This document shows, in pieces, positions 52,050 to 60,121 of a stretch of DNA of 64,000 bases (its first letter is position 1; the number at the start of each line of letters is the position of its first letter). A program made the translations under genes and the position numbers. Source of the stretch: Cupriavidus basilensis. Lineage in GTDB: Bacteria > Pseudomonadota > Gammaproteobacteria > Burkholderiales > Burkholderiaceae. The notes beneath the pieces are model-generated. The model saw only the letters and a list, made by a program, of their open reading frames with translations, made no database searches and was not told the origin of the DNA. The stretch spans positions 3,224,001 to 3,288,000 of the forward strand of contig NZ_CP010537.1 of the NCBI RefSeq assembly GCF_000832305.1, written 5' to 3'.

Positions 52050-53570
52050 TCAGTGGGCTTCTGCTGGCGCCGGTGACTTGCCCGCCAGCGCCTGCTCGCC
52101 GGCGGCGCCGGCCGTGCTCAGGGCTTCCTCGCACGCTGTGCCCATGCTGGTATCGGGTGCCTGGGCCGCGAACTCCGGCTCCGGGGCCGGCCCGGGCGCG
52201 ACCGGCAGGATATGGGCCGCGCGCCAGTTGCCAAAGCGGTAATACGCCACGGCCAGCGTGACCGAGACCACCGAGCCCAGCGGAAAGCTCCACCAGATCG
52301 CATCGGCGCCGACGGTGCGCTCGAGCACCCAGGCAAATGGCAGGCGCACCACCCACATCGACAGGAACAGGATCACCAGCGGGGCCATCACCGCGCCGGT
52401 GGCGCGCACGGTGCCGAACAGCACGATGGTGAAGCCGAACAGGATGAAGGACCACAGCACGATGGCATTGATATGCTGCGCAATACCGATGGCCGTGCCG
52501 TCATCGGGCAGGAACAAGCCTAGCGAGTGACGGTTGAACAGGTAGATCAGGGCAACCAGCGCACCGGTCATCAGCAGGTTGAACAGCAGCCCTACGCGTG
52601 TGATGCGCGTCACGCGATCCCACAGCCCGGCGCCCACGTTCTGCGCCACCATCGACGACACGCTGGCGCCAACCGCCAGCGCGGGCATCTGCACGTACGT
52701 CCACAACTGCGAGGCCACGCCATAGGCGGCGGTGGTCTGCGAGCCGTAGCGATTGACCAGCGACATCATCACGATCGCCGACGACGAGATCACCACCATC
52801 TGCAGCCCCATCGGCAAGCCCTTGGCCACCAGCGCGCGCAGGATCGCGGTATCGGGCCTCAGGTAGGCGAGCTGGTGGCGCCGCAGCGCCAGGAAGTGGT
52901 GGCGGCGGTAGAGTACGATCAGCATCGCGGCCAGGCTCGCCAACTGCGCGATCAGCGTGGACAGCGCCGAGCCCGCGATGCCGAGCTCCGGGAACGGGCC
53001 GATGCCAAAGATCAGCAGCGGATTGAGCACCACGTCCAGCCCCACCGACAACAGCATGAAATAGAACGGCGTGCGTGAGTCTCCCGCGCCGCGCAGCGTC
53101 ATCATCACGAAGTTGTAGAAATACATGAAGGGCAGCGCCAGGAAAATGATGCGCAGGTAGCTGATGGCAAGCGCCCTGGCATCGGCCGGCGTGCCCATCG
53201 CGGCAAGGATGTCGGGCGTGAAGGCGTAGCCCAGCGCCGCCGCCAGCACCGACAGCAGGATGAAGAATGTGGTGCTGGTGCCGACCACGCGGCGCGCCTC
53301 GACCAGGTCGCGCGCGCCCACGGCCTGCCCGATCATGATGGTGTTGGCCATGCTGATGCCGAACACCACGCCAAGCAGGAAGAACAGGATGATGTTGGCA
53401 TTTGAGGTGGCCGTCAGCGCCGCCTCGCCGAGGAAATGCCCCACCCACACGGAATTGATCGAGGCGTTGAGTGACTGCAGGATATTGCTGCCCAGTACCG
53501 GCAGCGAAAACAGCAGCAGCGTGCGGCCGATCGGGCCTGTGGTCAGCTGGGCTTTGGATTTTGTTGGCAT
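52050..53570 (-). CDS. MATE-family efflux transporter
   Basis: A 506-residue inner-membrane protein with about twelve helices in two homologous halves. MATE features include the N-terminal LLLFSLPVLGSNILQSLNASINSVWVG, the second-half start LVAKGLPMGLQMVVISSSAIVMMSLVNRYG and PALAVGASVSSMVAQNVGAG. It exports cationic compounds using Na+ or H+. The tail after about 460 is Ala/Pro/Glu-rich and cytoplasmic. No ribosome site precedes the ATG; the leader instead has three 11-bp direct repeats and a palindrome further up. Confidence 0.93.
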   Translation of the reverse strand: MPTKSKAQLTTGPIGRTLLLFSLPVLGSNILQSLNASINSVWVGHFLGEAALTATSNANIILFFLLGVVFGISMANTIMIGQAVGARDLVEARRVVGTSTTFFILLSVLAAALGYAFTPDILAAMGTPADARALAISYLRIIFLALPFMYFYNFVMMTLRGAGDSRTPFYFMLLSVGLDVVLNPLLIFGIGPFPELGIAGSALSTLIAQLASLAAMLIVLYRRHHFLALRRHQLAYLRPDTAILRALVAKGLPMGLQMVVISSSAIVMMSLVNRYGSQTTAAYGVASQLWTYVQMPALAVGASVSSMVAQNVGAGLWDRVTRITRVGLLFNLLMTGALVALIYLFNRHSLGLFLPDDGTAIGIAQHINAIVLWSFILFGFTIVLFGTVRATGAVMAPLVILFLSMWVVRLPFAWVLERTVGADAIWWSFPLGSVVSVTLAVAYYRFGNWRAAHILPVAPGPAPEPEFAAQAPDTSMGTACEEALSTAGAAGEQALAGKSPAPAEAH

Positions 53571-53585
53571 GTTCGAGGGAGGTCT

Positions 53586-53618
53586 CGTGTTCTTATCGTG
53601 TTCTTATCGTGTTCTTGT
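53586..53618 (+). repeat. Three tandem 11-bp repeats in the MATE leader
   Basis: CGTGTTCTTAT twice and CGTGTTCTTGT once, 16 to 48 bases upstream of the MATE start. In the transcript they read as ATAAGAACACG units. Could be a regulator array or a variable-number site controlling expression. Confidence 0.85.
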
Positions 53619-53715
53619 TGCGCCTGGGATCGCCGGGAAACACGGGGCAATGCCATGTACGGCACCCACGTTCGCCACTATGTCACACCTTGCTGACAAC
53701 CCTTGTCGGTAGTTG

Positions 53716-53728
53716 TCTGTCAGACAGA
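53716..53728. promoter_or_regulatory. 13-bp perfect palindrome TCTGTC-A-GACAGA
   Basis: Lies about 150 bases upstream of the MATE gene. Possible operator of a TetR- or MarR-type repressor, though none is encoded next to it. Confidence 0.4.
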
Positions 53729-53901
53729 AAGCCAATTGTAAGCAGTTGTTTGGATCAGGGCACGGCCTCTGCGCGCGAGCAGTCAAACATTGGCGAAACG
53801 CAATGCACAAGTGGCCCTTGGTGTCTCGCAGAGCGGCCATGGGGGTATCCCCCGCCATGGCGTCCAAGCGCCGTTTCCATCCATGAACCGTGAGGTCCAA
53901 T

Positions 53902-54252
53902 ATGACGACGAACACGCCGATTCGCTTTTTGCAAGCTGCCACCGCCATGGCTGCCGGCCTGCTATGTGCGGCTGCCTTTGCCCAGACGCCCGCCGTTCCT
54001 GCCGATAGCGGCAATGCCGCGGTGCCGGCTGGCATGACACAGATCGAGCCACCTAAGGATCCGCTCGTCCAGCGCCGCGATGCCAACAAGCAGGCCTCGG
54101 ACGAATACAAGGCCAAGAAAAAGGCCGCCAAGACGGAGTACAAGCAGGATGTGAAGTCCGCCAAGCAGCAAAAGAGCGCCGAGAAGAAGGCCAACAACGA
54201 CACCATGAAGCAGGGCATGTCGGCCGCGCCCGTCGACGCGCAGAAGAACTAA
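53902..54252 (+). CDS. Small exported Lys/Ala-rich protein, unknown function
   Basis: A 116-residue protein with a signal peptide (cleavage after AFA, mature QTPAVP). The mature part is highly charged, with Lys/Asp/Ala-rich helices (DANKQASDEYKAKKKAAKTEY) and no cysteine. GAGG lies before the ATG at 53902; a GTG at 53890 is rejected because the ribosome site would be inside the gene. A very strong terminator follows at 54307-54345, so it is monocistronic. Many Burkholderiaceae encode such small basic periplasmic proteins of unknown role. Confidence 0.75.
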   Translation: MTTNTPIRFLQAATAMAAGLLCAAAFAQTPAVPADSGNAAVPAGMTQIEPPKDPLVQRRDANKQASDEYKAKKKAAKTEYKQDVKSAKQQKSAEKKANNDTMKQGMSAAPVDAQKN

Positions 54253-54306
54253 GCGCGTACGACCGCGTTCTTGCCGCCTACCCCTTACCCCTTACGGGCA
54301 ACCACG

Positions 54307-54345
54307 AAAAACGCCCCGCCTCCCTCAAGGAGGCGGGGCGTTTTA
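54307..54345 (+). terminator. Strong intrinsic terminator, potentially bidirectional
   Basis: AAAACGCCCCGCCTCC pairs with GGAGGCGGGGCGTTTT around a short CTCAA loop, with A residues before and T residues after the stem. It ends the Lys-rich protein transcript and insulates the operon starting at 54457. Confidence 0.95.
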
Positions 54346-54456
54346 TCGTGATGATCGCTTGAACCGCGGCGCCGTTGGGTGAACCATCGGACGCCATTTC
54401 CGGGTCTGTTGCATCTGCGGGTAGAATCGCGCGGTAGGTGCAAATTAGATCACATT

Positions 54457-56823
54457 ATGGGAAGAACCGTGGATAGCAATGGCAACGCATTGACAGGTGC
54501 TCAGCTGGAACAGTTACTGGATCGCCTCGATGCCGATCTCGAGGAAGGCAACGCAAGCGAAGCCGCCGATTTGCTGGCCAGATTGCGCGCCAGGCCGCTG
54601 CGGGCCGATTCCCTTGAGTCCATCGACCGGCTGCATACGCTATGGATGCGCGCGGGGGATCCGCAGGCTGCCCTGGCGGTGGTCGACGCAGACGGCGCCG
54701 GCACGCTGGAAGCCACGCCGCGCGAAGCGCAGGCCGAGCTGCGCATGCACCTGGCGCTCTATCGGCTCCAGATAGCCAACCACGTCAACGAGGAAGAGCG
54801 CATCCGGCGTGCCCTCGCTGAGATGCGCGCCATCGTGGCAGGGACGGCGGAGCTGAATGCGGACCGATATCGGCAGCTTCGCGTGTTCGATAGCCTGGAG
54901 CTGCGCAAGCTGGACATTGCGCTGGAGACGATTGACCTGCGCCATGCCTTGAACGGGGCCATCGCGGGACGCGCGCCGTTCCGTGCATGGGACCTCGCCG
55001 ACCATCAGCGGCGGCGCGCCTGGGCGCTGTCGCGCCATGACCGCAACGACGAGGCCAGCGCAGCGGCTGGCGCGGCCATCCTGGCGCTGCAGACGGCCGG
55101 CGCGGAACAGGACATCGACGAGAACGACTGGCTGCGCCTGGGCAGCGCCCTGATCGGCATCGCGCCCGAGCGCCTTGCCGACTTCCAGCAGGCCGCGAGG
55201 GCCCTGGCAGCGCAATGGTCCTTGCCGCAGCGCCGTGAGCTGGAAGTCCGGCTGTCCCGGCTCGCGGCGCGCGCCTTGCACGCGCAAGGCGATTTGCCCG
55301 GCGCGCTAGACGCCTGCTCCGCCGCGCGCCATAGCCTGTCGTCGAACGGCAGCGATGACTTCATCGAATACGAGCTGCCGTGGCTGATGGAAGCCCGGCG
55401 CGTTGACGAGGCCGGCCGCCGGGCGTTCCTGCACATCTATCAGGTCGAGGACGAGATGTGGGACGGCGCCGCGCAGCTGGTTCACGCGCGGCTGGCCGAT
55501 GCGGCCGACGACTCGGCCTGGTGGCCATTGTGCGCCATGCGGGCCTGCAACACGGCAGAGACGCTGGCGGCCTTCCTGTCAAAAGCGCAAGAGGGAGAGC
55601 AGGATCCGCGGACCCTCTCCCCGACCCATGAAGCGCTCTTTGGCGCCGTGGGTGAGCAAGTGGATGCGCAGGCCTTGCAGGCGGTGTTCGACGCGGCACG
55701 CGCACTGGCCGAGCAGCGTTCGCCGGGCCATCCATGGATCGCCAGACTGGCGGCAGTCAACGACGGCGCGGCGGGCCGCATCGATGCCACTACGCAAGCG
55801 GCGCGACTGTATGCGGCGGCGCAGGAAGGCGGCATGCAGGACAATCGCACGGCCTATGCCCTGTTCGAGGCACGGGTGCAATCGCTGGGGGTGATCCAGA
55901 CGCTGAAGCTGCCGGCCTGCTCGCTGCCAAGCGGGCTGTGGGCGTACAACTTCGGCGTCGCGCTTGGCGATTTGCTCGAGGAACACCTTGACCGCGTCCC
56001 CGCCGAGTCGCGCAACGAAACCTACAGCGATTTCATCAAGCTGCAGATTGCCGCCTACGAACAAGGGCAAGCATGCCTGGAGCGCTATTTCGAGAGCGGC
56101 GCCGGCCATCCGTACGATGCCTGCGCGCACCTCTACTCCATGCTGTGCAACAACCTGGCCATCATCTACCGGTACGACGAGCGGCGCTACGAGGATGCCG
56201 TCGAGCTGCACAGGCGCGGCATCGCCGCCAGCCCGTTTGCCGAACACTACGCAGGCCTGCTGAGCGTGCGGATCGCGATGCAGGATGCCGAGGGGATCAT
56301 CGGCGCCGCCGAGCAGCTCTGGCACTACGCCGCCGAGTTTGGCTACAGCCGGCATGACCCCAACGAATACCTGAGCGAGGTGTCGCAGGCCCTGTACAAG
56401 CTCGATCGCGACCGCGAGATTCCCATCTGGCTGGAGCGCCTGGTGAAATGGGAGCGGGAAGAAGGCCGGGACGGTAGCAACGGTAGCAACCTGTCGAGCA
56501 GGGACTTGGGCGTGCGCCTGCAAATGGCCTTCAACCTGGCGCATCACTGCCCGGAAGAAGCCACGGCCCTGTGGAGCCGCATTGCACGTCAGGTCGATGA
56601 CTGCCCGGAATCCTGGCTGGTCAGCCTGGCGGCCGACACGCTCAGCGGGCTGCAGCGCCACGCCGAGGCCACTGCGCTCTTCGAGCGTGCCATCGCAATC
56701 AATCCACGCAGCAACGAATACGAGCTAGCCGATGTCAAGGCGATGGAGGAGAAAGTGGCGCTCTACCGCGCGCAAGCCAACCCCGCCGGCAAGAGCAAGA
56801 GCTGGTGGCAAGTCTGGAAATGA
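54457..56823 (+). CDS. Large TPR-like protein, first gene of a coupled three-gene module
   Basis: A 788-residue soluble protein without signal peptide or membrane helix, built of alpha-helical, TPR-like repeats that are clearest near the C terminus (ALYKLDRDREIPIWLERL, LQRHAEATALFERAIAINP). N-terminal residues up to about 300 are also helical and rich in Ala, Glu and Arg. No catalytic motif recognised; the C terminus ends in KSWWQVWK. The ATG at 54457 was chosen from the in-frame starts by position; a GTG at 54469 is possible. Its stop overlaps the next gene as ATGA. It probably acts as a scaffold for the two downstream proteins (inference). Confidence 0.75.
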   Translation: MGRTVDSNGNALTGAQLEQLLDRLDADLEEGNASEAADLLARLRARPLRADSLESIDRLHTLWMRAGDPQAALAVVDADGAGTLEATPREAQAELRMHLALYRLQIANHVNEEERIRRALAEMRAIVAGTAELNADRYRQLRVFDSLELRKLDIALETIDLRHALNGAIAGRAPFRAWDLADHQRRRAWALSRHDRNDEASAAAGAAILALQTAGAEQDIDENDWLRLGSALIGIAPERLADFQQAARALAAQWSLPQRRELEVRLSRLAARALHAQGDLPGALDACSAARHSLSSNGSDDFIEYELPWLMEARRVDEAGRRAFLHIYQVEDEMWDGAAQLVHARLADAADDSAWWPLCAMRACNTAETLAAFLSKAQEGEQDPRTLSPTHEALFGAVGEQVDAQALQAVFDAARALAEQRSPGHPWIARLAAVNDGAAGRIDATTQAARLYAAAQEGGMQDNRTAYALFEARVQSLGVIQTLKLPACSLPSGLWAYNFGVALGDLLEEHLDRVPAESRNETYSDFIKLQIAAYEQGQACLERYFESGAGHPYDACAHLYSMLCNNLAIIYRYDERRYEDAVELHRRGIAASPFAEHYAGLLSVRIAMQDAEGIIGAAEQLWHYAAEFGYSRHDPNEYLSEVSQALYKLDRDREIPIWLERLVKWEREEGRDGSNGSNLSSRDLGVRLQMAFNLAHHCPEEATALWSRIARQVDDCPESWLVSLAADTLSGLQRHAEATALFERAIAINPRSNEYELADVKAMEEKVALYRAQANPAGKSKSWWQVWK

Positions 56824-58055
56824 GTACCGCCAGGCGGACGACGGGCTACGCGCCGCGCAACGCCCTCAATGCCGGCGCCCTGAAGTCCGGCATCGCCGCG
56901 CGCAGCCAGGCGCGCGGCGACGATGCGGCGGTGCGCGCCTGGCTGCTCAACCACTTCTATCGGCATCTCGTCGCCAACTTCGAGCCTGCCGTCAAGATCG
57001 ATTCGCTCGACGGTGCGCGCCAGGCCCTGAGATCCGAGGCGATGCCGGAGTGGGTTGCGGCGCGCCTTGGCGCGCCGGCCAAGGCGAGCGTCGGTGAAGC
57101 CGCGGCGCCACCGGCCCCGGTCGTCTGGGTGGATCCTGTCGAGCCGCGCCTGCTGGCGCTGGAAGTGCGGCTCGTCGAGTTCCTGACCTCGCGCAAGGGC
57201 ACCGCGCTTGACGGCAAGCTCGACCGCATCACCTGCCCGCAAGCGCTGGCGCTGTGGGATAACGAACATGCTGAAATGGCCACGCGCATCGAGCGCGGCT
57301 GGCGCCATAGCCAGCCCGAAGCGCTGCGCACCATGCTGCCGACGTCGCATGGCGTGTTCGTGGAGTTGCTGCCGGACAGCGCGCTGCTGCGCGCGGAAAT
57401 GGCCTTTGAAAGCTATGTCATGCGGCATTGCCTGGGGCAGTTTTCCGACCGGCGCGCGCTGTCCGGCGGCTACGGCGAGCGCTATGCCGAAGCGGTGGCG
57501 CAGCGGCGCCTGCGCCTGCTGAGTTTGCGCGATGCCAGCGGGCAACCGCATATCACCATCAGCGTGCACGTGCTGGCCAATGGCGCGCTCACCGTCGACC
57601 AGGTCAAGGGCAAGCAGAACAAGCCGCCCATCGCGCGCTACGTGGAAGATGTGCTGGCCTGCCTGAACGCCCTGGGTACCGGCGAGGAAACCCCGGACGA
57701 TTGCATCGCCATCGGCGTGGTACGCACGCCAGCCGGCTGGACTCGCATTGAAGACGTGGCCGACGCCACGACGCAGACCCGATTGGTCGCCCGCTACCCA
57801 CAACTCTTTGCCAGGCTCAGCGCGCCGACGCCAATGGTGGAGTGGCTGGTCGCCGCGCGCCAGCCTGGCTTGCTGGCGGAGCGCTCGCCAATGGCGGCAT
57901 CGGTCCGGTATGCCACTCGGCAAATGCCGGCCCCGGGTGACGCCGAGGCGGTAGTCGCCACGGAAGGGGTGCCATGGCCGGACATCTCGCCGTCGCACGC
58001 GGCGCAGATCCAGGCTTCGCCCTCGCGAGGCATAGCGGAGCGCCAGACCGGATGA
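56820..58055 (+). CDS. PcfJ-like domain protein
   Basis: A 411-residue protein whose middle part resembles the PcfJ-like family: SYVMRHCLGQF (His-Cys near 204), then an RLRLLSLRDASGQPHITISV beta segment (about 225-250) and VDQVKGKQNKPPI (about 261-273). The family is named after a conjugative-plasmid protein of Enterococcus, and its biochemical role is unknown to me. The first 100 residues are helical; the tail after about 340 is Ala/Pro-rich. Coupled on both sides by four-base overlaps, so it belongs to one functional unit with its neighbours. Confidence 0.7.
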   Translation: MSTARRTTGYAPRNALNAGALKSGIAARSQARGDDAAVRAWLLNHFYRHLVANFEPAVKIDSLDGARQALRSEAMPEWVAARLGAPAKASVGEAAAPPAPVVWVDPVEPRLLALEVRLVEFLTSRKGTALDGKLDRITCPQALALWDNEHAEMATRIERGWRHSQPEALRTMLPTSHGVFVELLPDSALLRAEMAFESYVMRHCLGQFSDRRALSGGYGERYAEAVAQRRLRLLSLRDASGQPHITISVHVLANGALTVDQVKGKQNKPPIARYVEDVLACLNALGTGEETPDDCIAIGVVRTPAGWTRIEDVADATTQTRLVARYPQLFARLSAPTPMVEWLVAARQPGLLAERSPMAASVRYATRQMPAPGDAEAVVATEGVPWPDISPSHAAQIQASPSRGIAERQTG

Positions 58056-58726
58056 ATGGGATGAATGGGATCAATATCTTCTACCTGCTCCTCGGGGCCT
58101 TTGTGCTATGGCGGGTCTACCGCTTCCTGCGCCCCAAGCGTCCGGCTGTGTTCACCCGGCGCAAGCAATGGGCATTGACGTTGGCGCAGCCCATGGTCGA
58201 TGCCAGCAGCATGACGGGCTTTTTCAACCCCGCCTCGGACCACATGACCGACGCCGCGCGCGCGTTGTTCCGCGTGCAGTTGCTGCATCAGATGGAGTTC
58301 CGCGCCAATGCCACGGATGACGAAGTGCGCCAGCACCTCGCCCATGTGTTCGAATCACGGTGGTTTCGCGCCGACCTGCATGCGCTGCTGCCGACCGACG
58401 ATCCGCGCGCCGCGCTGGCCTTTGCCTGCGTCCGGATGGCCTTTTTTGCGCGCAACGTCATGTTGATGGGCTGGGTCGAGCCGATGGCCGCGTGGCGCGT
58501 GCTCCTGCTCAACGCGCAGCGCGCGCAGGACTGCTTTGCCAGCTGGGAAGATTTCGGCCACGCCTTTATCGCCGGGCGCCAGCAATGGCTTGCCGCATTC
58601 CGCGCCGACCCTCTGGGCAAGTCCTTCGATGCAGCCAGCTTGCGCCAGCTGCTGGCGCCGCCCAAGGGCGCCTGGGCGGCGCTCGCATGGCCGGACCTGC
58701 CGGCGTTCAGCCCCGAGCCGCGCTGA
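58052..58726 (+). CDS. DUF1266-like protein with N-terminal membrane anchor
   Basis: A 224-residue protein: one hydrophobic segment near residues 6-20 (IFYLLLGAFVLWRVYRFL), then a soluble region that resembles DUF1266, with alternating charged helices, a conserved-looking ALAFACVRMAFFARNVMLMGWVEP and FASWEDFGHAFIAGRQQWL. The family is of unknown function. The N terminus has a repeated MNG (MNGMNG), so the exact ATG is uncertain. It anchors the module to the inner membrane. It faces the enoyl-CoA hydratase gene tail-to-tail. Confidence 0.7.
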   Translation: MNGMNGINIFYLLLGAFVLWRVYRFLRPKRPAVFTRRKQWALTLAQPMVDASSMTGFFNPASDHMTDAARALFRVQLLHQMEFRANATDDEVRQHLAHVFESRWFRADLHALLPTDDPRAALAFACVRMAFFARNVMLMGWVEPMAAWRVLLLNAQRAQDCFASWEDFGHAFIAGRQQWLAAFRADPLGKSFDAASLRQLLAPPKGAWAALAWPDLPAFSPEPR

Positions 58727-58727
58727 G

Positions 58728-59483
58728 TCAGCGCCCGGACGCCGCCCGGTAGGCGGCGATGCGCGCCTTGAGTCCCGGCCGGGCGGCGGAACGCACCAGC
58801 TCGGCCAGCTGCGCCGCGCGTGCCGCTTCGGCCATGGCGTGGCCGCCCTGCGTGGCGGCCTGGATAGCGGCATGGGTTGGCGCATCCAGCCGGCGTGCAC
58901 GCTGCGCCAATGCGGCAAGCGCGCCGGCGCGCGCCTGCGGCGCCACCAGATCGCCGGCCATGTCGCAGGCCAGCGCTTCCTCGGCCCGGACCGCCCGTCC
59001 GCTCGCGATCCAGTCCCGCGCCGTCGCCACACCCACCAGCTGCGCCAGCCGGGCGCTGCCCAGCACCAGGCCGAAGGCCGCGCCGGGGAAAGCCAGCGTG
59101 CTGCCCGGCGCGATCCAATGCTGCTCGCAGGCCACCATCAGGTCGGCGCCCGCACCCATGGCGCGGCCCTGGACCAGCGCTACGGTGGTGAAGGGCGCGC
59201 CGTGCACGCTTTGCAGCAGCAGCTCGACGCGCACGAAACGCGCCAGCAGCGAATCGTCGCTCTCGCCATCGAGCTCACCCAGGTCGAACCCCGTGCAGAA
59301 ATGCGTGCCGGCGCCGTCAATGGCGAGCAGGCGGGTGCCATCGTGGTAGCACGCCAGCACCGCCGCCGCGAGCGCCTCCACCAGCCCGGCCGACAGCGCA
59401 TTGCCGCGCTCGGGCCGGTTCAGCGTCAATCGGGTGACGTCACCTTGCTTGTCAATCAGCAGACCGGCTTGTTCCACGTTCAC
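58728..59483 (-). CDS. Enoyl-CoA hydratase/isomerase-family protein
   Basis: A 251-residue crotonase-fold protein: LTLNRPERGNALSAGLVEAL near the N terminus, an oxyanion-hole strand FCTGFDLGEL and the second one VQGRAMGAGADLMVACEQHW, then AFPGAAFGLVLGSARLAQLVG. The usual catalytic Glu pair of hydratases is not obvious, so it may be an isomerase, thioesterase-like or hydrolase member. The start is GTG at 59483, overlapping the cupin stop as GTGA. It is the last gene of the CoA-transferase operon. Confidence 0.82.
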   Translation of the reverse strand: MNVEQAGLLIDKQGDVTRLTLNRPERGNALSAGLVEALAAAVLACYHDGTRLLAIDGAGTHFCTGFDLGELDGESDDSLLARFVRVELLLQSVHGAPFTTVALVQGRAMGAGADLMVACEQHWIAPGSTLAFPGAAFGLVLGSARLAQLVGVATARDWIASGRAVRAEEALACDMAGDLVAPQARAGALAALAQRARRLDAPTHAAIQAATQGGHAMAEAARAAQLAELVRSAARPGLKARIAAYRAASGR

Positions 59484-60121
59484 CCCTGCGCCGGTGGTGC
59501 CACCGGCGCCCACAGGTTGGGCACCAGCGCATTGGAGTAGCCGGATACAAACGGCTTGGTGGCGCCGCTGGCAGCGTCATACACGTGGCGCTGTATGCGG
59601 CCGATGTTGCCGCCATAGAGATGCACGCTGATCGACACCCGGTCGTCATGCGCATTGCGCACGCGGTGCACATCGCCCAGCGTGGGCGAGACCGCGGCCA
59701 CCTGGCCGGCGCTCAGCACCACGCCATCGCCGTCCTCCACCAGCCGGCCGCCTTCCACGCGGTAGTGCTGGTCCACCTCGGCGCCGCGCAGCATGCCGAT
59801 CAGGCCCCACACCGTGTGGTCGTGCACGGGCGTTTGCTGGCCCGGCCCCCAGACGAAGCTGACCAGCGAAAAACGATCGAGCGGATCACCATAGAGCAAA
59901 TGCTGCTGGTAGTAGACAGGATGCGGGCGCGCCATGGCCTCAGGCAGCCAGTCGTCGTGCGCCACCAGTTCGCTCAGCGCGGCGCTGGCTTGCGCGAGGA
60001 TGTCCGGCTCGCTGCTGCCCTCACGTTCCGCCTGCGTGACCACGCGGCTGATGGTGGCAACGAACGCGCGCAGCCGATCGATGTTGCCGGTGTTGCTGGT
60101 GTTGCCAGTGTTGCCGCTCAT
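59480..60121 (-). CDS. Cysteine-dioxygenase-like cupin, possible thiol dioxygenase
   Basis: A 213-residue cupin of the cysteine dioxygenase superfamily. Metal-binding motif PVHDHTVWGLIGMLRG (about 97-112) and a later VSPTLGDVHRVRNA His region support a mononuclear Fe site. Family members oxidise cysteine or 3-mercaptopropionate to sulfinates. The N terminus begins with NTG/NTS repeats encoded by a short tandem array at 60082-60116. Flanked by CoA-transferase and crotonase genes in one operon, which favours a 3-mercaptopropionate-type pathway (inference). Confidence 0.8.
   Translation of the reverse strand: MSGNTGNTSNTGNIDRLRAFVATISRVVTQAEREGSSEPDILAQASAALSELVAHDDWLPEAMARPHPVYYQQHLLYGDPLDRFSLVSFVWGPGQQTPVHDHTVWGLIGMLRGAEVDQHYRVEGGRLVEDGDGVVLSAGQVAAVSPTLGDVHRVRNAHDDRVSISVHLYGGNIGRIQRHVYDAASGATKPFVSGYSNALVPNLWAPVAPPAQG
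60082..60116 (-). repeat. Short 9-bp tandem array within the cupin gene start
   Basis: About four copies of TGTTGCYGG-like units (60082-60116, last partial), giving Asn-Thr-Gly/Ser repeats at the protein N terminus. Could vary in number without changing the frame. Confidence 0.75.

Follow-up and report, generated by a model that had tools for sequence, protein, structure and literature searches.

Three consecutive genes of Cupriavidus basilensis, coding for a TPR protein, a divergent PcfJ-like protein and a DUF1266 protein, may form one dedicated unit whose parts are gained and lost together. They lie in a 64,000-nucleotide stretch of contig NZ_CP010537.1 (positions 3,224,001 to 3,288,000), which was analysed at its full length and is referred to below as the window. 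To the full explanation proposed here, which includes a role in membrane or envelope upkeep, we give a probability of roughly 0.4. The case is built on gene order, co-occurrence, gene fusion, the swap of one partner and sites lacking the whole cassette, all of them direct observations. The features of the locus, in window positions, are the following.

54457..56823, + strand: gene 1, TPR protein of 788 residues, a predicted alpha-solenoid and the partner arm of the TPR type
56820..58055, + strand: gene 2, divergent PcfJ-like protein of 411 residues (PF14284, E 0.0077), in which hydropathy revealed no membrane segment
58052..58726, + strand: gene 3, DUF1266 protein of 224 residues (PF06889, 7.7e-15), with a short hydrophobic N-terminus and then basic residues
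56820..56823, + strand: four-nucleotide ATGA overlap of the stop of gene 1 with the start of gene 2, read from the sequence
58052..58055, + strand: four-nucleotide ATGA overlap of the stop of gene 2 with the start of gene 3, read from the sequence
57426..57431, + strand: codons of His203-Cys204 in the PcfJ signature MRHCLGQ, from an alignment of 46 relatives
57600..57620, + strand: codons of the QVKGKQN motif of the PcfJ core, with Q261, G264 and N267 invariant in 46 of 46
58070..58117, + strand: predicted membrane-anchoring segment, about residues 7-22 of the DUF1266 protein, from hydropathy only
54303..54350, + strand: strong intrinsic terminator 3' of a 120-residue gene, insulating the cassette, from RNA folding

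The PcfJ-like and DUF1266 profiles match the same 15 of 200 genomes sampled from the family, and no others. The genes are same-strand neighbours in 14 of these, and in G137 they fall on two contigs, with the DUF1266 gene at a contig start. Directly upstream of the PcfJ-like gene, ten of the 15 have a TPR relative, which matches the full profile or is cut by the contig end (G137), and the other five have a long DUF4034 match (137-220 bits) in a DUF4034/Sel1 protein encoded directly downstream, beside DUF1266. The genome sets used throughout are samples, profiles built on the family favour its own members, and gene calls in the flanks are crude; the Fisher p values of 7e-23 for PcfJ-like/DUF1266 co-occurrence and of 1e-13 ignore relatedness and give the scale only. 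DUF4034 is matched weakly (22-33 bits) in four more cases, including a 30-bit match at G000:C2:3062020-3062415 of the window's own genome, away from the cassette. Outside the 15 genomes the TPR profile (E<=1e-20) matches four genomes in part (75-85 bits) and finds a fragment of 181 bits in G132. The latter (L055, G132:C27:145517-146209; 39% identity) stands alone in a genome free of PcfJ-like and DUF1266 matches and is perhaps a remnant. G143, counted among the module genomes and excluded from the tree described below, has an apparently decayed DUF4034-type cassette (L054, G143:C5), in which the PcfJ-like gene is split in two and the DUF4034 gene is interrupted by a stop.

The same order recurs among 23 named-species loci obtained with the PcfJ-like query: DUF1266 follows in 22 and the contig ends in the other one, while a TPR relative precedes the PcfJ-like gene in 19. 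At two loci (L023 and L024) DUF1266 is followed by a DUF4034/Sel1 gene, which takes the place of the TPR gene, and the remaining ones are L006, with a PcfJ-like gene truncated by the contig start, and L025, a fusion for which no partner was found. Fusion of genes 2 and 3 is recurrent, since seven of the best 120 of 232 PcfJ homologues contain PF06889 in a protein of 608-699 residues, and in all seven the PcfJ and DUF1266 parts are separated by a hydrophobic stretch (hydropathy cut of 1.5). In L017, L018, L019 and L025 the two are read as a single frame, and by eye they are fused in 3 of 17 printed loci. The first-pass annotation had described the coupling of the three genes as strict. In the window this is accurate, as the three same-strand genes, their coordinates and ATGA at both junctions all agree with the sequence, but among relatives ATGA at the first junction is present in only 8 of the 17 printed loci, genes 1 and 2 being close and free of the overlap in the remaining ones (again by eye). 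The DUF1266 gene also has an alternative in-frame ATG at 58061, nine bases past its ATGA start.

The helical partner comes in two types. In a tree of 30 PcfJ-like sequences, a single branch with support 100/99 separates 20 TPR-partnered from 9 DUF4034-partnered sequences, that is, one change. The Lysobacter fusion L025 was included but assigned to neither group, as no partner gene could be identified for it. The rooting is arbitrary, and some branches are long. Burkholderia has either type, and the TPR type is also found in Pseudomonas, Ralstonia, Trinickia, Acidovorax, Tahibacter and Eleftheria, as well as in metagenome-assembled Zoogloeaceae and Desulfovibrionaceae, the last of which may reflect a binning error. 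Alignment of the DUF4034 arm as a diverged TPR arm covered only 34 columns with a probability of 0.9%, so the two arms are treated as analogous and not as homologous. Two fourth genes placed after DUF4034 may belong to this type, one of 201 residues in E. coli (L119:11787-12392) with no Pfam match and one of 239 residues in one Salmonella (L115:16022-16741) with a weak TPR match.

The cassette also behaves as a whole when it is missing. It is present in 5 of 60 genomes of the genus, the window's included, and G485 and one contig of G504 (L106 and L111) show an empty site in which the MATE, 120-residue and enoyl-CoA hydratase genes follow each other without the three genes; at L106 a stem-loop resembling the window terminator can be recognised by eye. 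G504 also has a copy of the cassette, on a different contig from the empty site; as this genome has 8% contamination, its placement is unsure. Taken together, the same 15 of 200 genomes, the conserved order, the fusions, the partner swap and the empty sites provide the neighbourhood conservation by which the first-pass annotation had wanted its idea checked, and the joint function it had suggested is strongly supported by these observations and by the whole presence in E. coli described below. That the genes are merely co-transcribed, with no joint function, is accordingly very improbable in view of the co-occurrence, the fusions, the exchange of partners and the presence of whole cassettes in varied neighbourhoods.

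In enterobacteria the DUF4034 type is found at yegQ. Two Salmonella records filed as plasmids carry chromosomal-type genes, with the cassette after baeR; it lies directly before yegQ in one record, and in the other an islet follows. Identity to the window proteins is 38% for the PcfJ-like and 33% for the DUF1266 protein, and the third protein matches the DUF4034-arm profile with 100% probability. As in the window, a PcfJ-like, a DUF1266 and a helical-repeat gene stand here in a row on one strand (STM2135 and its upstream neighbours), but the repeat protein is of DUF4034 type and encoded downstream, and the PcfJ-like and DUF1266 genes overlap by one base. A query of 3,924 bases from Salmonella, spanning the PcfJ-like and DUF1266 genes and most of the DUF4034 gene, found matches in 297 of the 5,426 complete E. 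coli genomes searched, each covering 80% or more of the query at 60-80% identity, and all three families are named in each of 22 printed rows; the count rests on DNA similarity (about 66%), so that more distant copies are missed and whole presence is judged only for the copies found. E. coli ATCC 25922 and UTI89 have the cassette, which in the two strains examined lies between yegP and yegQ, whereas in K-12 yegP adjoins yegQ (trhP), constituting an empty site. Relative to baeR the orientation in E. coli (L119 and L120) is opposite to that in Salmonella (L116), which suggests inversion or independent insertion.

The searched literature holds no functional description of these yegQ-locus genes that we could find. 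In the parts of PMC7400221 available, STM2135 (about 700 residues) is called of unknown function, and SAIDI-1, an islet of type VI secretion system and contact-dependent inhibition immunity genes, is inserted between it and yegQ in Salmonella; by position STM2135 is the DUF4034 gene. It is called an inner membrane protein in a passage of PMC3420936. A listing seen from PMC4219756 places an STM2133 mutant among the hypermotile ones (swimming 1.08 +/- 0.10, swarming 1.55 +/- 0.46), and from the numbering STM2133 would be the PcfJ-like gene.

PcfJ was named from a conjugative plasmid, and a role in conjugation or in the maintenance of an element could be read from that name, from the distant similarity to the PcfJ domain and from PcfJ being a gene name on IncI2 plasmids in the literature passages available. 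This has only the slimmest probability. Relatives of the PcfJ-like protein occur in 8 of 72,556 plasmid records, all of them non-mobilizable and two of them the Salmonella records with chromosomal-type neighbours, which places these relatives outside conjugative elements, and all 297 E. coli copies are chromosomal, one place each. The His-Cys pair is common to the PcfJ family (PF14284) and the window subfamily, but the latter differs by a conserved N-terminal region of its own and by lying in a chromosomal cassette and not in a conjugation region.

A role in defence or interbacterial conflict, in which the helical arm would sense a phage or a delivered toxin and the PcfJ-like protein would act as effector at the membrane, deserves more weight, although we consider it unlikely. 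It would fit the patchy distribution (15 of the 200 family genomes and 5 of the 60 genus genomes sampled), the cassette-like insertion, the swappable and sensor-like arm, the SAIDI-1 islet inserted beside STM2135 (PMC7400221, seen in part), the P2-type phage genes that adjoin yegQ in one E. coli strain, and the match of the L024 DUF4034 protein to phage family phrog_8741 (function unknown) at 3.3e-8. Against it, none of the three cassette proteins matches PADLOC, nor do any of ten further proteins (six neighbours and four that belong to the DUF4034 type or lie next to it); the PcfJ-like protein is unmatched across 50,697 phage records, and searching viral contigs with its profile yielded no relatives; and no nuclease, NTPase or pore family is among the Pfam matches of the three. 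The surroundings are ordinary too: of ten neighbour proteins from six other loci, nine have metabolic or housekeeping Pfam families (PrpF, GST, ABC permease, GntR/UTRA regulator, carbamoyltransferase domain, PPK2, M81 peptidase, SRP54 and FAD oxidoreductase) and one has none, and no cross-genus neighbour shared at a fixed place was seen outside the cassette with the crude gene calls. With these results and the rarity on plasmids, the conflict or transfer role that the first-pass annotation had entertained found no support, nor did a location in a defence or mobile island, and it is the patchiness, the swappable arm and the adjacent islet which make us keep a conflict role in view.

Concerning the individual proteins, the naming given in the first-pass annotation is clear for DUF1266 and holds for TPR through a family profile, while the PcfJ assignment falls below the Pfam cut-off and the membrane anchor is weak. 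Pfam TPR matches of gene 1 alone stay below cut-offs (best E 1.8e-4), and it is the profile of 48 family members that matches PDB entries of designed TPR proteins at 5e-11, which identifies the repeats. The PcfJ-like protein scores 16.5 bits against PF14284, for a cut-off of 25. Of its 46 relatives, 26 reach E<=0.01 (6.1e-7 at best), and the E. coli protein, at 27 bits, exceeds the cut-off. A scan with the PF14284 model finds nothing in the window's own genome, so that membership is distant. His203, Cys204, Gln207, Arg237, Thr246, Gln261, Gly264 and Asn267 are invariant in all 46 relatives, M-x-His-Cys is present in all four more distant PcfJ hits, and the His-Cys pair also occurs in the E. 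coli and Salmonella proteins examined; on our reading of the aligned sequences, this motif would define the PcfJ family. The DUF1266 protein reaches 56 bits against PF06889 (cut-off 27), covering only profile positions 83-175 of 175. None of the three proteins matches PHROGs, and NCBIfam gives only a sub-threshold DUF1266 match to a hypothetical-protein model (24.6 against 386 bits).

Membrane topology was predicted with a hydropathy cut of 1.7 near the N-terminus. Of 96 DUF1266 homologues 56 pass it, 52 of them with a surplus of positive charge behind the hydrophobic segment, from which a cytoplasmic DUF1266 domain is predicted. The cut is passed by only 2 of 112 PcfJ-like proteins shorter than 450 residues and by 3 of 84 TPR proteins, and both therefore look soluble.

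On this basis, a physical complex of the three products is, in our judgement, quite probable. The DUF1266 protein would be held at the cytoplasmic face of the inner membrane through its N-terminal segment and would bind the PcfJ-like protein, whose His-Cys and Gln-Val-Lys-Gly-Lys-Gln-Asn residues may build an active site and through which it probably acts as enzyme or ligand binder. The large protein of helical repeats (TPR or DUF4034/Sel1) would be an interchangeable arm bringing a client or trigger. As best guess, the whole would work as a conditional unit for membrane or envelope stress or protein quality control, useful in some habitats. A weak pointer to upkeep of the envelope or of membrane proteins comes from the K-12 DUF1266/J-protein overlaps near hscC, from the suggestion that HscC works at the plasma membrane (PMC8215388, in the passage available) and from the enterobacterial baeSR neighbourhood, mdtABC-baeSR standing beside the cassette in two Salmonella and two E. 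coli records.

The K-12 ybeQ-ybeR-djlB-ybeT-ybeU-djlC-hscC cluster is also the model for a different explanation, a specialised co-chaperone set in which DUF1266 and a helical-repeat protein would be arranged around an Hsp70 at the membrane, as in HscC-DjlB/DjlC. Several features favour it: ybeR-djlB and ybeU-djlC overlap by four nucleotides, as the genes of the cassette do, the Sel1-repeat genes ybeQ and ybeT lie alongside together with hscC, the partner is membrane-linked, and in the seen part of a Dickeya table HscC, a J-domain protein and a DUF1266 protein bear consecutive numbers (PMC6329079). The K-12 partner, however, is a J-domain protein acting with the Hsp70 HscC, no PcfJ gene is annotated there, and YbeR and YbeU show by eye nothing like the N-terminal anchor predicted for the window protein. 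No cassette protein has a J-domain match, HscC-grade Hsp70 (50-51% identity) is found in only 2 of the 15 module genomes and in none of 10 without the module, hence HscC itself is not needed, and the window's genome has no HscC, its best matches being 35% identical, as other Hsp70s are. A co-chaperone set is thus improbable. A DjlB/C profile, built from two sequences, revealed no hidden relation to the PcfJ-like or TPR proteins. For the K-12 region (L072, 676711-683393), where DUF1266 genes adjoin J-protein genes, no functional explanation was found in the literature passages available.

Several results weigh against the dedicated membrane-upkeep unit. The PcfJ-like and DUF1266 profiles have no solved structural relative at E<=1. 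For the DUF1266 protein of the window the anchor is predicted with modest confidence, since a hydropathy of 1.66 over 17 residues falls slightly short of the cut, and 40 of the 96 homologues are also below the cut. The baeSR neighbourhood is seen only in Enterobacteriaceae, and elsewhere the tested neighbours belong to unrelated metabolism. The hypermotility listed for the mutant of STM2133, the presumed PcfJ-like gene, is the only phenotype seen and does not point to quality control. Finally, in class-wide samples DUF1266 occurs in 7 of 274 genomes and PcfJ in 4 of 252, none common to both; the wider Pfam families thus occur apart, and the tie holds for these subfamilies and not for the domains generally. 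One of the six other DUF1266 genomes, G423, was examined closely, and its PcfJ-like and DUF1266 genes are accompanied by a TPR relative (29% identical), arranged as in the window. The window's own genome has a second DUF1266 gene (L001, G000:C1:1093860-1094381; an open reading frame of 335 residues) with a stronger match, E 5e-28, and no PcfJ-like or TPR partner within the 3.5 kb examined.

Regarding the immediate surroundings, the strong upstream terminator of the first-pass annotation was confirmed by RNA folding (-40.5 kcal/mol, compared with a mean of -16.3 for shuffled sequences; z -8.7), while a simple terminator scan missed it on the + strand. The 120-residue gene (53890-54252) ends before it; it was provisionally labelled psiF and has no Pfam match. 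Its product is lysine-rich with a signal-like start, and 55 of the 60 genus genomes contain a match to it. Two genes ahead of the cassette there is a MatE efflux gene, and downstream an enoyl-CoA hydratase/isomerase gene converges on it. No RNA family was found over 53000-60000. The G+C content of the cassette, 67.4%, is close to the 66.7% of the window; the source genome has 8.4 Mb in two contigs, and the nearest named relatives at the locus are Cupriavidus basilensis (95% identity).

The description of these genes as an undescribed system stands within the literature and databases searched. DUF4034 is not mentioned in the literature searched, and the available passages hold no functional description of PcfJ, DUF1266, DUF4034, the STM numbers or the ybe/ynjI names. 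The novelty lies in that no described system of such composition was found; a new mechanism is not thereby implied. In the seen part of the tables of PMC7582179, a DUF1266 gene of E. coli 042, EC042_RS03510, is strongly raised among the data on H-NS and H-NS2 mutants, which suggests H-NS silencing.

A bolder version, which we regard as rather doubtful, would be a widespread membrane-tethered surveillance machine with a constant PcfJ-DUF1266 core, PcfJ being a new enzyme, and different helical arms as sensors, of the TPR or the DUF4034/Sel1 kind. It would have been acquired as a cassette, with the yegQ region of E. coli and Salmonella as one of several sites. If the three genes do form one unit, the unknown families PcfJ, DUF1266 and DUF4034 would become parts of one testable unit. 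It could be tested in ordinary laboratory bacteria, as E. coli ATCC 25922 has the cassette and K-12 the empty site, and the partner swap would serve as a natural experiment on which part sets specificity.

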